Origin: Clostridia bacterium
GTDB taxonomy: Bacteria; Bacillota; DTU086
DNA length: 64,000 nucleotides
Direction: 5' to 3'
NCBI GenBank assembly: GCA_012523575.1
Contig: JAAYIF010000006.1
Span: 1 to 64,000 of the forward strand
Shown here: positions 126-13,226 of the stretch, in pieces
Position numbering within the stretch: position 1 is the first letter of the stretch
Layout of the letters: each line of letters begins with the position of its first letter
The notes under the pieces: generated by a model
Seen by the model: only the letters and a program-made list of their open reading frames with translations
What the model was told of the DNA's origin: nothing
Database searches by the model: none
Translations under genes and position numbers: made by a program

Positions 126-3100
126 GTGCAGCAGGTTTCTAAAAGCCATCAGCTTCTTTCTTTTCTCAAAGACTTTGCTCTTCTTCGAAGAAAGCGCATT
201 ACGGCTTACGGGAGCGGGGATAGGGTTTTATGGTTTGCAGATCTCCCCAATGACTTACCTTCTTCCTGGAAGGATGCATTATGGTCGGTTTTCAGTTCGG
301 ATAAGCCGGATGAAACGCCTGATTTGTGGCTGGAGGTCCGTAAGAAGCGCATGCCGGAACTACCTCCTATCCCGGAAGAAGTAAAACGCTGGCTTCCAGA
401 AAATTTTCTTAAAGAACCAGAAGCATATGTCCGTGAAAATACAGATAATATGTTGAGTCTGCTGCGGGAAAAAATTAACATAATAAAATCTTCTGCAGAA
501 TCTAAAATAGATTTAACTGCGTTTGATGTTGCAGAGGAACAGTTTTTAAAAGATTATCCTGAAGTTGAGCAGGCTTGGCTTGAATATCTTATTAATCAAT
601 GGGAGTCCTGGGCACAGGAAATGCGTGTATGGCAGAAAGTGCAGAATGTTTATGAGAATGTAGACTTTATGCGCCGGCGCCTCGAAGAAGCCGAAGAGCG
701 CTACGAGCTTGTACTGGCAGTAGGCCTTCTGCAGTGGCGCGACCCGGGAGGTAATGTTATAAAACGCCACCTTCTTACAGCTCCGGCGGAGATTTCTCTG
801 GATGCGGTTCGCAGTGTGCTGAGAGTATCTCCTGCCGCAACCTTTGATAAATTTGGGATAGATTTAAGCATGCTGGATTTCCAGCAGATGCCGGATTTGG
901 AACCTGTGAAAGAAGAATTAGATATGCTTCTTGAAGAGTTGGATGTAAGAATATGGGATAGGGAAAAGGTAGGACAAATCCTGAATGTTATTGCCAACAG
1001 AGCGAGCTCAGATGCTCAGGTAGATGAAAATGCTTTTAAACCTTTGGAAAGAGCGGATAAAACATTTCGTATTGTTTTTGCGCCAGCTTTGGTTTTGCGC
1101 GAGCGGCGTTCTACAGCATATGAAGAACTAATAAGAAGCTTTATAGATGCTTTTGAAAACAATGAAAACTTTCCGACGACTGCTCCATGGGATCAATTTG
1201 TTGCAGAAGGAGAAACTTCAGGCGGTTCAGGTGAAGGAATGCCTGAAGGCGATAAGCTGTTTTCTAGTGATTCAAATAACAGGCTCTATTTTCCCCTGCC
1301 CATGAATAATGAACAAAAAATGATAGCAGAAAGGCTTAGTATGCGGCCATATGTTCTTGTAAAAGGACCGCCGGGAACTGGGAAAAGCCATACCATAGCC
1401 AATTTAATATGTCATCTTTTGGCTTTAGGAGAAAGGGTATTGGTAACGGCCCATGCACCGAAAGCTTTGACTGTGCTGAGGGATCTTCTGCCGGGTGATG
1501 TTCCTAACCTTTGTGTTATGGCTTCCGGCTCTACACGTGAAGAACAGAGGATACTTGAAAGCAGCGTTCGTACGATTATATCGCGCCGTAATGAATGGAA
1601 TTCCGAATGGGCTCACATAGAAATTAAGAGATTGGAAGAAGAGTTATCAAGGCTGGAAGAAAAGCGTGCGGGCCTGGAGGTGCAGCTGCGTCGCTGTCGC
1701 GAAGCGGAAACTTACGAACATACTTTATTCGGCGGTTATCAGGGTACTGCAGCACAGATTGCCAAGCAACTGAAGAGAGAACAGGAAACCTATGGCTGGA
1801 TACCGGATGTTATCAGTCCCGAAAGCCGTTGTCCACTGGAAAAATCGGATTTAAAGTTTATAGCTGAGGTACACAAAACACTTACGGATGAACGTTTAAA
1901 TGAGCTGCAGATGGAAATTGGTGATTTTTACCTTCCAGATCCGGAAGAATTCCGAAATTTTTTAAAAAATCTGAACTCTGACGAACAGCGCTTGAATGAG
2001 CTGTCTGAATCGATAGAAAAAATTAAGCTTGAAAAATTACGTAATTTGTCAGATTATGATTTAAATAACTTTAAAACCTTTTTAGAAAGTCTGGAAGAGG
2101 AAATTTTAAAAACATCCCATGAATTCAGCAGCGCTGTTAATCAAATAGTAAATGGACTGCTTTTAGAACAAAGAACACGATGTCGGAATATTATTCAAGA
2201 ACTTGAGCCTTTGGTTGGAGAGATCAAGGAAGCCTGCGGAAAAGTGAAAGGCATACGGGTAGAGCTGCCGGATAATGTTGAAAGAGCTAAATTATTGAGA
2301 GATACCCGATGCCGTTTTGAGCATTTTGAGAAGGGGGGATGGCGCGGTTTCGGTTTCATTGCACCTCAGGTGGTGCGCGAGACGCGTTATGTAGAAGAAA
2401 AGTGTTTGATTAATGGTGAAGCACCGCGGGATCTTAATCTGCTGCAGAAATTGGTTAATTACCTTGAATTGGAATTCCTTATTCAGCAGTTATGCAGTGT
2501 ATGCGTAGAACTTGCTAATTTATTGAAAAAGGTTGATCCCCGATCTGCAGATCGAGTTGTAGAAGAATTTATGAATAAAGTTTCAAATCTTCTTAAGCTG
2601 TTTGAAGAGAAGGGGGAAATCTTAAAGATTATCCCATTAAATGATAGGGTACTGCTTGTTAATCCAGATGAGATCGGTAAATGGTTGAAGCTTATAGAAA
2701 TAGAAATGATCAGACGGTCAGTCGAGAAAGCTGAGGATAAAGCAGAAGCATGGAAAAATAATATTAGAGCTTTATCTGAAAACAATGTGCATCCGTGCAT
2801 GCTCGAACTTGAAAAGGCAATATTGGAAAGAGATGCTGCTAAATGGAGAAGTGCCTGGGAAACAAGGGAGCGCGTAACAAAAGAGAGAAAGCGCCTTAAC
2901 CGCTATATGGAGCTGCTAAGCCGGTTGGACCGGGAATGCCCCGGGTTGAAAAACCTTCTTGAATCCAGTCGTGGTGATATAGAGTGGCAGGATCGGATTC
3001 TTCAGCTTGATAAGGCATGGGCTTGGGCGGCTGCAAAAGCATGGCTTTATTTGATAGTTAAAGAAAATGATTATAATGTTATTCTAGCGCAGATAAAGGA

Positions 3101-4649
3101 TATTGAGAAAAAAATAAAATCAATAATTTTGAGGCTTGTTGAGTTAAAAGCTTGGAATGCCTTTTTTGAGCGGTTGGATTCTAAAACGCAGCAGAGTCTT
3201 ATTGCTTGGCAGAAGGCTATAGCACGTGTAGGAAAGGACAAAGGAAAATATGCTTTTAAGCACCGCCGTGCAGCCCAAAGGTATTTAAAGGACTGCATTC
3301 AGAAAATTCCTGTATGGATTATGCCGGTCCATAAGCTTTGGGGTACAGTGACTGCTGTACCCGGCATGTTTGATACCATTATTATCGATGAGGCCTCTCA
3401 AGCTGGGATTGATTCCCTAATACTGCTGCTGCTGGGAAAACGAATTCTCGTTGTAGGTGATGATATGCAGAACAGTCCAGAGGGAGTGGGTATAGCTGAG
3501 GACGATATTGCGCGTTTAGCCAGGGAGCACCTGCGGGATTTTCGCTTTAGGGAAGAATTTAGACCCGATGCAAGTCTTTATGACCATGCAGAAAGAGCCT
3601 TTGGCAATGTTATTTCTCTTAGGGAGCATTTCCGCTGCGTGCCGGAGATAATTCGTTTCAGCAACAGTCTGTGCTACTCTAATTTTCTAATCTCACTACG
3701 TCAGCCTCCAATAGATAGGCTTCCTCCGTTGAAAACCACTTATGTTTCTGGGGGATATTGTGAGGGAGAAGGGCAGCGTCTGATTAATAGATCTGAAGCT
3801 GATGAGATAGTAAAGGCTGTACAGGAATGCCTGAAAGATGAGGCCTATAAAGGTAAAACTATGGGTGTTATAGTGCTTCAAGGCAGCTCTCAGGCTGAGC
3901 TTATAGAAAGAAAGCTTGCTGAAGTGCTGGATCCCAAGGAACGGGATAATAGGAAAATCCGCTGCGGTGTACCCGCAACGTTCCAGGGTGATCAAAGGGA
4001 CGTAATTTTTCTCTCTTTAGTTGTGGCTCCAAATCATTCATATAGGGCCTTAACTTCGCTGTCGTACCAGCGCCGCTTTAATGTTGCCATGAGTCGCGCT
4101 AGGGACCAGGTTTGGCTATTTCACAGTGTTCAGCAGCATGAGCTCAATCCTTCGGATCTCCGATATAAGCTGCTGCATTTCTTTAACAGCTCCAGCTTGG
4201 AAGACCTTGAGACATATCAGGAAAAAGAACGGTTAGAACGCGAATTTCTAAAAAGGCCCCATGCGCCTGGAAACCAACCTGACCCCTACGAAAGCTGGTT
4301 CGAGGTGGAGGCTGCTCTGGAGCTTCTGCGAAGGGGTTACAGGATAAAGCCCCAGTATAAAGTTTCCGGATACCGCATTGATTTGGTAATTGAAGGGTCG
4401 GAGCACCGGCTGGCTGTTGAGTGTGATGGTGATGTCTGGCATGGCGTAGAGCAGTATGTCCGCGATATGGCCCGTCAGCGACAGCTGGAAAGGGCGGGCT
4501 GGACTTTTGTCCGCATCCGTTCGTCAGAATTTTATGCTAACAAAAAGAAGGCCATACAATTAATTGAAAAAAAGTGCGAGGAGCTTAAAATTTATCCTAT
4601 GGATTTGGTTAGTTACAGTGGTGGAGAACCCCAAAAAAGGCTTGGTTAA
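126..4649 (+). CDS. Giant SF1 (DNA2/NAM7-like) helicase fused to a C-terminal PD-(D/E)XK nuclease
   Basis: This is a multidomain protein of about 1,507 residues that probably translocates on nucleic acid and cuts it. An N-terminal region of about 390 residues has no motif I recognise. It is followed by a Q-like motif (NEQKMIAERL), Walker A GPPGTGKS near residue 413, and a long charged, probably coiled-coil insertion at about 490-1060. Walker B IIIDEASQ lies near 1083, GDDMQNSP near 1110, a GVPATFQGDQRD motif near 1283 and RRFNVAMSRARDQ near 1316, as in COG1112-type helicases. The last ~115 residues hold FEVEAAL, RIDLVI and VECDGDVWHG, which fits a DUF559/Vsr-like endonuclease fold. I chose GTG at 126 because GGGGG at 112-116 is well spaced from it; TTG at 117 touches that site. 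It stands alone, with no recognisable partner. COG1112 helicase-nuclease fusions occur among anti-phage systems (for example Mokosh), so a defence role is plausible but inferred. Confidence 0.85.
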   Translation: MQQVSKSHQLLSFLKDFALLRRKRITAYGSGDRVLWFADLPNDLPSSWKDALWSVFSSDKPDETPDLWLEVRKKRMPELPPIPEEVKRWLPENFLKEPEAYVRENTDNMLSLLREKINIIKSSAESKIDLTAFDVAEEQFLKDYPEVEQAWLEYLINQWESWAQEMRVWQKVQNVYENVDFMRRRLEEAEERYELVLAVGLLQWRDPGGNVIKRHLLTAPAEISLDAVRSVLRVSPAATFDKFGIDLSMLDFQQMPDLEPVKEELDMLLEELDVRIWDREKVGQILNVIANRASSDAQVDENAFKPLERADKTFRIVFAPALVLRERRSTAYEELIRSFIDAFENNENFPTTAPWDQFVAEGETSGGSGEGMPEGDKLFSSDSNNRLYFPLPMNNEQKMIAERLSMRPYVLVKGPPGTGKSHTIANLICHLLALGERVLVTAHAPKALTVLRDLLPGDVPNLCVMASGSTREEQRILESSVRTIISRRNEWNSEWAHIEIKRLEEELSRLEEKRAGLEVQLRRCREAETYEHTLFGGYQGTAAQIAKQLKREQETYGWIPDVISPESRCPLEKSDLKFIAEVHKTLTDERLNELQMEIGDFYLPDPEEFRNFLKNLNSDEQRLNELSESIEKIKLEKLRNLSDYDLNNFKTFLESLEEEILKTSHEFSSAVNQIVNGLLLEQRTRCRNIIQELEPLVGEIKEACGKVKGIRVELPDNVERAKLLRDTRCRFEHFEKGGWRGFGFIAPQVVRETRYVEEKCLINGEAPRDLNLLQKLVNYLELEFLIQQLCSVCVELANLLKKVDPRSADRVVEEFMNKVSNLLKLFEEKGEILKIIPLNDRVLLVNPDEIGKWLKLIEIEMIRRSVEKAEDKAEAWKNNIRALSENNVHPCMLELEKAILERDAAKWRSAWETRERVTKERKRLNRYMELLSRLDRECPGLKNLLESSRGDIEWQDRILQLDKAWAWAAAKAWLYLIVKENDYNVILAQIKDIEKKIKSIILRLVELKAWNAFFERLDSKTQQSLIAWQKAIARVGKDKGKYAFKHRRAAQRYLKDCIQKIPVWIMPVHKLWGTVTAVPGMFDTIIIDEASQAGIDSLILLLLGKRILVVGDDMQNSPEGVGIAEDDIARLAREHLRDFRFREEFRPDASLYDHAERAFGNVISLREHFRCVPEIIRFSNSLCYSNFLISLRQPPIDRLPPLKTTYVSGGYCEGEGQRLINRSEADEIVKAVQECLKDEAYKGKTMGVIVLQGSSQAELIERKLAEVLDPKERDNRKIRCGVPATFQGDQRDVIFLSLVVAPNHSYRALTSLSYQRRFNVAMSRARDQVWLFHSVQQHELNPSDLRYKLLHFFNSSSLEDLETYQEKERLEREFLKRPHAPGNQPDPYESWFEVEAALELLRRGYRIKPQYKVSGYRIDLVIEGSEHRLAVECDGDVWHGVEQYVRDMARQRQLERAGWTFVRIRSSEFYANKKKAIQLIEKKCEELKIYPMDLVSYSGGEPQKRLG

Positions 4650-4868
4650 ATTTGTGCACAATTGCGAGCATTTGGTTTTATATCTTATTAAAACAAAGAA
4701 GGATTTGTTTATCTTTGGAAAGAAAAAAGGAAGCAGAGTAAGCTGCGGTTATATTAAATGGCGTAAAAAGGATGAGGTTTCTGAGGAGTATTAGGCCTTT
4801 TTTATAAAGGCTTAGGCTTAGGATGGGGGCTGCAGCAGAAGAAAATATTTTTGGCCGGAGGGGTTTTA

Positions 4869-5213
4869 ATGGGGAACTGTATTTACTGTGGGAAGCCGGC
4901 CGGATTCCTGCGCAGGAAGCATCGAGAGTGTGAGCAAAAGAGAAAAAGAGGATCTTTTCGCGGTCGACCCGTTGAAGTTTCCCAAAAGGTGCTTGTGGAT
5001 AGGGGTATTCTTGCAGTAATAACAAAGCACCTCTACTTCCACGGACAGAAAAAAGTTTTTCGTGTGCGCTGGGATAAAGTGGTTTCTTTTATGCCTTTTT
5101 CGGATGGAATAGGAATTCAGCGGGACGCAATGACAGCAAAGCCGCAGTATTTTATAACTGGTGACGGTTGGTTCGCATATAACCTGGTTGTCAATACTGC
5201 CAACCTGGGCTAG
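4869..5213 (+). CDS. Small zinc-ribbon / PH-like domain protein, apparently internally shortened
   Basis: The 114-residue product starts at ATG 4869 behind GGAGGGG. Residues 1-25 carry CIYCGKPAGFLRRKH followed by ECE, a short cysteine-containing ribbon. Residues ~35-114 contain VITKHLYFHG, WDKVVSFMPFSDGIGIQ and ITGDGWFAYNLV, which resembles a PH-like membrane or protein-binding fold. From memory, homologues in Clostridia keep these two segments at the ends of proteins two to three times longer, with a helical middle that is missing here. Function is unknown. It may be a remnant or a functional short form. It follows the helicase by about 220 bases without a shared operon signal. Confidence 0.6.
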   Translation: MGNCIYCGKPAGFLRRKHRECEQKRKRGSFRGRPVEVSQKVLVDRGILAVITKHLYFHGQKKVFRVRWDKVVSFMPFSDGIGIQRDAMTAKPQYFITGDGWFAYNLVVNTANLG

Positions 5214-12030: not shown

Positions 12031-12062
12031 GGGGAAAGAGCTTTCCCCTTATAATTTTTTGT
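12031..12062 (+). terminator. Terminator between convergent genes
   Basis: An 8-bp GC-containing stem (12031-12038 with 12041-12048) is followed on the plus strand by TTATAATTTTTT. It ends the DUF1284 transcript. The stop codon of the convergent minus-strand gene abuts the stem at 12049-12051, so it may also act on the other side. Confidence 0.7.
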
Positions 12063-12795
12063 ATTTATTTCTTTTTAGGGCAATGGTTTTCTTTGTTCTC
12101 ATGCGAGGGGGGGTAAATGCTGTTTTTTCAACGGATATGGGCCTTGAAAGGTAGCGGGGTGTGCTTTTTTTGATAGAAGGGGCCTCTTCTTGGTCAGCGG
12201 GTGCTGACTTTTCTGAGGCTTTGCCATATTCTTTTTGCTCCTGTAGGGATAATTTTTGGTCCCTGGGATTTTCAGGTGCGGGCTCCTGACCAGTGTTTTT
12301 AATCTCTTTTTTGGTTCTATTATCTTTTTTGCCAGATGCCATAGGCTGAGGGGTTGCTGTCAGAGTTGCGAGTCTTTTGATCTTATTAGTTTTTTTCTCA
12401 GGACATCCAGGTGCTTTAAATTCAACGGCTGTAATTTCCAAAAAAACGATCTCAAATATGGTGCATCCGTTAATAAGAACTATGAAATCATGCATTACGC
12501 AAACAAGAACACCGCTAAATTTATAGCCTCCGGCGAAAACGGTGATAAAATGAAGTATCAGTTTTTCCAGTTCTTTTTTGAATTTAGAGGGCGGTTCTTT
12601 TATAAATCTGGTTGAGGAAGGCTCAAATTGTTTGTTTATGTCCTTATCTGGTGCTTCGGGTTTTTCCAGATTGTCTATTTCACCGGTGATTTCATAGGCA
12701 ATTTCAATGGGAGCAGTGTTTTCCGTTTCCGAGGACACCGGGTTTTTTTCATGCCAGTCAGAAGCATTTTTATCGTTTAAGTTATGCTCTAACAT
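12049..12795 (-). CDS. Unknown protein with a DUF2642-like small domain and charged tails
   Basis: Of the 248 residues, only ~76-131 look folded (KFSGVLVCVMHDFIVLINGC, then IFEIVFLEITAVE and APGCP). This block aligns with the 94-residue product immediately upstream: both have KFxGVL, a hydrophobic strand DFxxLI, an I-rich strand and a closing A-x-GCP. The rest is acidic (1-70) or rich in Lys, Arg, Glu, Pro and Ser (135-248) and probably disordered. The pattern recalls DUF2642-type proteins of Bacillus spores, but I cannot confirm the family. ATG 12795 follows AAAGGAAG. A spore coat or surface role is speculative. Confidence 0.6.
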   Translation of the reverse strand: MLEHNLNDKNASDWHEKNPVSSETENTAPIEIAYEITGEIDNLEKPEAPDKDINKQFEPSSTRFIKEPPSKFKKELEKLILHFITVFAGGYKFSGVLVCVMHDFIVLINGCTIFEIVFLEITAVEFKAPGCPEKKTNKIKRLATLTATPQPMASGKKDNRTKKEIKNTGQEPAPENPRDQKLSLQEQKEYGKASEKSAPADQEEAPSIKKSTPRYLSRPISVEKTAFTPPRMRTKKTIALKRNKYKKL

Positions 12796-12941: not shown

Positions 12942-13226
12942 TTATTCCTCTTCTGTGTCGCGGTGGTCTTTATCACGATCATCATCGCGGTCGCGATCGC
13001 GGTCACGGTCGCGGTCGCGGTCGCGGTCGCGGCGGTCAGGGCAGCCCTCTGCTCTTCTTTCGATGGATTCAATTTGATCAATGTGTATTTGAAGTATTTT
13101 ACAGCAGTCAATTAAAATTACAAAGTCATCTTTAACATCGCAGAGGACTCCTTTGAATTTTTTGTTAATCACAACAAACTTGAAACGATTGTCTCTTAAG
13201 ATATCACGGAGATCATCTTTGTGCAC
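12942..13226 (-). CDS. Small DUF2642-like protein with Arg-Asp repeat tail
   Basis: The 94-residue protein starts at GTG 13226 behind GGAGG (13235-13239). Residues ~5-62 form a small predicted beta-rich domain (FKFVVINKKFKGVLCDVKDD, ILID, ILQIHIDQIESIE) shared with its downstream paralogue, ending in GCP. Residues ~65-85 are almost pure Arg-Asp dipeptides, then a DKDHRDTEEE end. The repeat is encoded by a hexanucleotide tandem array. Function is unknown; the small domain resembles DUF2642 and might be a spore or surface component. Confidence 0.65.
   Translation of the reverse strand: MHKDDLRDILRDNRFKFVVINKKFKGVLCDVKDDFVILIDCCKILQIHIDQIESIERRAEGCPDRRDRDRDRDRDRDRDRDDDRDKDHRDTEEE
12987..13037 (-). 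repeat. Tandem hexanucleotide array (CGGTCG-type) encoding Arg-Asp repeats
   Basis: About eight near-identical 6-bp units (GCGGTC with a few variants) lie within the preceding gene. The unit preserves the reading frame, so copy-number change would lengthen or shorten the Arg-Asp tail without a frameshift. Confidence 0.85.

Follow-up and report, generated by a model that had tools for sequence, protein, structure and literature searches.

Near the start of the stretch of DNA analysed here (64,000 nucleotides, hereafter the window) lies a gene for a protein of 1,507 amino acids in which a UPF1-like SF1B helicase is joined to a C-terminal MTES_1575 nuclease (positions 126 to 4649, forward strand), and we consider it most likely to be an ordinary candidate for one-gene phage defence. 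The explanation that we favour, with somewhat better than even confidence, is that the protein is a stand-alone effector against invaders, most likely phages, in which the helicase would drive a nuclease acting on invading DNA. Taken separately, a function in defence appears likely, as does action as a single gene, and a DNA-cleaving mechanism is moderately likely.

The open reading frame is intact, with a GTG start at 126 and a stop at 4649. A TTG at 117 is a possible alternative start, and the nearest homologue (L017:8890-13401 of genome G099), which is 68% identical across the full length, begins one codon before. Besides the reading frame, the assignment of the gene draws on Pfam and PADLOC matches and on the comparison with L017, in which pN for the whole gene was 0.187 against a pS of 0.727 (saturated). 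When the gene was divided into parts, pN was lowest in the nuclease (0.108) and reached 0.187 in the N-terminus and 0.25 in the insertion described below. Purifying selection acts on all parts of the gene, the nuclease included.

Pfam placed AAA_11 from residue 394 and AAA_12 at residues 1149-1332. According to Pfam and the alignment, the first part of RecA1 (residues 391-470; 1296 to 1535, forward strand) carries Walker A (GPPGTGK, 414-420) and motif Ia; the rest of RecA1, with Walker B (DEASQ, 1088-1092), and RecA2, with motifs III-VI, occupy residues 1077-1345 (3354 to 4160, forward strand; Pfam, alignment and Foldseek). The further motifs are VGDD..Q (1110-1115), EHFR (1167-1170), FQGDQRD (1286-1292) and RFNVAMSRA (1317-1325). 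The full set of SF1 motifs claimed in the preliminary description was thus present, and it proved near-invariant when 91 homologues were aligned: the Walker A lysine is kept in 90 of 90, DE..SQ of motif II in 91 of 91 and the motif VI arginine in 91 of 91. The protein was modelled by AlphaFold2 as two pieces, and Foldseek searches with the helicase piece (60 sequences; mean pLDDT 87.4, pTM 0.58) matched SETX, Sen1, UPF1, IGHMBP2 and DNA2 with E values of 1e-12 to 1e-9. With motifs I-VI and RecA folds nearest to those of UPF1 and SETX, the protein belongs to the UPF1-like SF1B helicases.

In the same model, residues ~471-1057, between Walker A and Walker B (1536 to 3296, forward strand), were almost wholly helical, with several helices of at least 30 residues. 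A coiled-coil-like insertion of about 570 residues had been described at this place, and the description holds at a length of ~590 residues. The segment 383-1345 has a nearly constant length across all family members, which argues that the insertion is a structured element, and the PADLOC profile PDC-S37 also spans it. The protein has its RecA domains in common with UPF1, SETX, IGHMBP2 and DNA2, and tentatively also a stalk/1B region, but differs from them in carrying this extra helical insertion and a C-terminal Vsr nuclease.

The nuclease, a Vsr-like PD-(D/E)XK domain of the MTES_1575 type, covers residues ~1386-1490 (4281 to 4595, forward strand). PF18741 (REase_MTES_1575) matched residues 1392-1481 with an E value of 9.7e-29 and 99.7 bits against a gathering score of 38.2. 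The motifs FEVEAAL, RIDLVI and VECDGD, on which the nuclease tail had originally been proposed, begin at residues 1392, 1417 and 1431, and the catalytic residues D1419, E1432 and D1434 are conserved in 90, 85 and 86 of the 91 aligned homologues, respectively. A homologue that departs from this pattern is L023:9054-13634 (reverse strand), in which RVPVA and SCN replace RIDLV and ECD, so that the catalytic residues are gone and the helicase motifs are retained; the same genome also encodes a second, intact family member, L022. Judging from its sequence, L023 appears to have a nuclease-free role in at least one genome, and this counts against the explanation we favour. Most relatives (for example L038-L041) carry ~200 extra residues at the C-terminus, reminiscent in sequence of a DUF3320 winged helix, which the proteins of the window and L017 lack; no such extension was seen past the stop in another frame in either.

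The N-terminal ~390 residues had been called unrecognised and a possible sensor, a reading that is weakened by the model described next, which leaves residues 1 to ~140 without an assignment. The AlphaFold2 model of residues 1-470 (pLDDT 89.4, pTM 0.77) has a long helix at 145-188 followed by a beta domain at 193-236, and its top Foldseek matches in the PDB were all of UPF1 type (UPF1, NAM7 and IGHMBP2), albeit weak (best E value 3.8e-3, TM 0.21) and perhaps stemming in part from the beginning of RecA1, which this model includes. We tentatively regard residues ~145-330 (558 to 1115, forward strand) as an ordinary UPF1 stalk/1B region. Residues 1-140 (126 to 545, forward strand) form an alpha/beta domain that is conserved in the family and modelled with high confidence; Foldseek gave no specific fold match for it.

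Of 101 relative genomes, 11 (one of them the window's own) had family matches with E values of 1e-30 or better, whereas the three genomes of the same genus or family had none. A scan of GTDB genomes yielded at least 564 relatives, spread over phyla of Bacteria and some of Archaea; many bacterial phyla and two groups of archaea are represented among the best 80. In the tree, many rows of which are MAG contigs, the window gene and L017 clustered with sequences of Acidobacteriota and Chloroflexota (SH-aLRT 98-100), apart from most Bacillota members, and horizontal transfer across phyla would be the simplest reading of this position. Homologues were also found on plasmids. On one of these (Deinococcus plasmid CP029776.1, L146:8001-13534) the homologue is apparently split by an IS701-family transposase and is annotated as several hypothetical proteins. 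A phage origin was rejected, since a single weak match was obtained in 50,697 phage records, from which the family is practically absent.

The neighbourhoods of the homologues were examined in 91 loci. No partner gene was constant, each neighbour being common to a minority at most, and many homologues adjoin ordinary genes. In 1.06 Mb of flanking DNA, DUF262/GmrSD genes occurred in 11 loci and four McrC genes in three; there were also 4-5 HsdM-like genes, four DISARM-like (DrmA-like) loci and several restriction-type helicases. These counts include three Streptomyces islands that are near-copies, and the gene names other than DUF262 and McrBC are our own reading of the sequences. For comparison, 101 whole genomes, together very roughly 260 Mb in size, gave 47 matches over the cutoff for GmrSD_N and about 27 for McrC; at a mean genome of ~2.6 Mb this would be ~0.2 and ~0.1 per Mb, respectively. 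As a rough guide, with a baseline from one phylum that is not taxon-matched, GmrSD and McrC are some tens of times denser in the flanks. A PADLOC tally of 144 neighbours did not discriminate them from 86 random genes, the control having caught a Wadjet operon by chance. On two Acinetobacter plasmids (L147:7254-11984 and L150:5693-10423), a homologue of 1,576 amino acids (28% identity over 157-1496) directly follows the pglX/DUF262, pglZ and brxL genes of a type I BREX system, and may possibly be an auxiliary BREX effector there.

The homologues are thus not confined to housekeeping contexts; GmrSD, McrBC, type I RM, DISARM-like and BREX genes recur beside them. One could still envisage a cellular helicase-nuclease for repair or RNA processing, DNA2- or UPF1-like and with no part in defence, given the fold kinship with DNA2 and UPF1 and the homologues that sit among ordinary genes. 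We regard this as very improbable, because the gene is missing from the genomes of the same genus and family and from ~90% of the relatives, its tree crosses phyla, and it occurs on plasmids and near BREX, GmrSD and McrBC genes.

The contig starts only 125 bases 5' of the gene, and its left neighbour lies beyond the edge. The claim that the gene stands outside any housekeeping operon, beside a glycan locus, can therefore be judged on the downstream side only, where glycan genes follow, beginning with galE at ~5252. The equivalent glycan locus of G099, whose galE is 84% identical to that of the window, also contains the helicase-nuclease (L017); there it has a GmrSD_N gene 133 bp upstream and lies between this gene and one for an HD-domain protein, with a DarG-like gene as a further neighbour. 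The HD gene is absent from the window, whereas the stretch that follows it is retained: blastn aligned 61 bp (4677 to 4737) that are 87% identical to the sequence just 3' of the HD gene in L017. In G001, of the same genus, galE is 93% identical at the DNA level and no helicase was found; a probable transposase remnant (L140:165-959) lies directly upstream of galE, where the window has the helicase. From the GmrSD and HD genes of G099 and the transposase remnant of G001, the place next to galE looks to be a variable slot. A short open reading frame at 4851-5213 begins like a zinc ribbon, with a CxxC motif, and is conserved at its C-terminus in a few plasmid proteins; it had no Pfam, PADLOC or PHROG match over the cut-off and no counterpart in the G099 locus. 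Farther along the window, the open reading frames at 12942-13226 and 12049-12795 (both reverse strand) share a similar core of the 'FVVINKKFKGVLCDVKDDFVILI' type, with a long series of RD dipeptides at the end of the former.

We compared the protein with known defence systems. The best match was to PDC-S37 (E value 3.6e-52, residues 410-1488 against profile positions 311-1342), a single-gene PADLOC candidate with an HMM of 1,550 positions, which was also the match with the best E value for all 12 family members scanned. The two are collinear through helicase, insertion and nuclease, so the gene is no fresh discovery: a database candidate already has the same layout. Profile positions 1-310 and 1343-1550 are unmatched, the last ~200 corresponding to the missing C-terminal extension, and the protein was therefore filed as a close relative rather than a member; the relative L038, with its longer C-terminus, matches to profile position 1533. 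Our literature search found no paper testing PDC-S37 and no phage test for the branch to which the window helicase-nuclease belongs. The NCBIfam anti-phage proteins Hhe and ProA can be aligned with it over RecA2 and the MTES_1575 C-terminus (132.5 and 187.5 bits), far below their cut-offs of 2000 and 1500 bits, and Pfam gave no DUF4011, the domain expected for Hhe. Homologues on Klebsiella plasmids are annotated as Hhe, for which we found only a listing in the literature. The SF1 helicase core is also shared with Mokosh (MkoC 96 bits, MkoA 106 bits). Mokosh bears a PLD-type nuclease (PMC10952713), whereas Pfam found MTES_1575 and no PLD domain in the window protein. Membership in Hhe, ProA or Mokosh was rejected, the cut-offs and domains speaking against it.

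By description, the layout resembles that of CnuH of type III-B CoCoNuT, a UPF1-like helicase with a large helical insertion after Walker A and a fused C-terminal Vsr-like nuclease; CoCoNuT requires the McrB/McrC-type proteins CnuB and CnuC (PMC11090510). The window protein differs in its N-terminus of ~390 residues. This likeness, the McrBC upstream in L018 and the GmrSD gene 133 bp upstream in L017 would accord with a subunit of a multi-gene system, either McrBC with a CnuH-like helicase or GmrSD paired with a helicase, that has its partner on the 5' side past the nearby contig end. Two further observations make this quite unlikely: the 91 loci have no common partner, and the genome itself lacks GmrSD and holds only broken McrBC reading frames on contig C20 (L138:9346-10941, where the GTPase and McrC portions are split into short ORFs of their own), with no McrB or McrC homologue downstream of the gene. 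A CoCoNuT subunit and an obligatory GmrSD partner were rejected on the same grounds. For the one-gene defence system of the preliminary description there speak the patchy, cross-phylum distribution, the lack of a partner, the defence neighbours and the conserved residues; its "orphan" status on the left concerns DNA beyond the contig start.

Nucleases of the Vsr/MTES_1575 type are generally DNA enzymes, and the neighbouring systems are mostly directed at DNA restriction; for these two reasons we prefer DNA as the substrate. RNA is possible since the nearest solved folds, SETX, Sen1, UPF1 and IGHMBP2, are RNA helicases, although DNA2, also among the matches, is a DNA enzyme. A stand-alone defence protein might then run as a UPF1-like motor on phage or host transcripts and cut RNA, so that translation is shut down or the infection aborted, an outcome proposed for CoCoNuT; Bell et al. 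2024 (PMC11090510) argue that RNA is the target of relatives bearing an insertion of this kind. In view of the nuclease class and the neighbours, we hold this to be an appreciable but lesser possibility.

On the preferred reading, that of a helicase-driven nuclease acting on invading DNA, the helicase would load on single-stranded nucleic acid exposed by the invader, most likely intermediates in the replication or end processing of phage or plasmid DNA, and move along it at the expense of ATP. The helical insertion may serve as a clamp or lid that restrains the C-terminal nuclease until translocation on a proper substrate frees it. The freed nuclease would cut the invading DNA and, if loosely controlled, also that of the cell, causing abortive infection. 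The adjoining glycan genes would be merely the variable locus that houses the helicase-nuclease.

An unlikely but far-reaching version is one-protein surveillance, in which a UPF1-like RNA motor would sense the transcripts of an invader through the conserved ~390-residue N-terminus and the insertion and release the fused nuclease. If true, immunity in hundreds of species would employ a bacterial counterpart of RNA surveillance built into a single chain. The kind is already listed as a defence candidate in a database, and the individual locus adds little beyond the picture of the family. That picture is of PDC-S37-type helicase-nucleases as a very widespread, phylum-hopping and probably self-sufficient defence gene related to Hhe and the CoCoNuT helicases, and the family is a good, simple subject for learning how motors of the UPF1 type control, in immunity, a nuclease fused to them.
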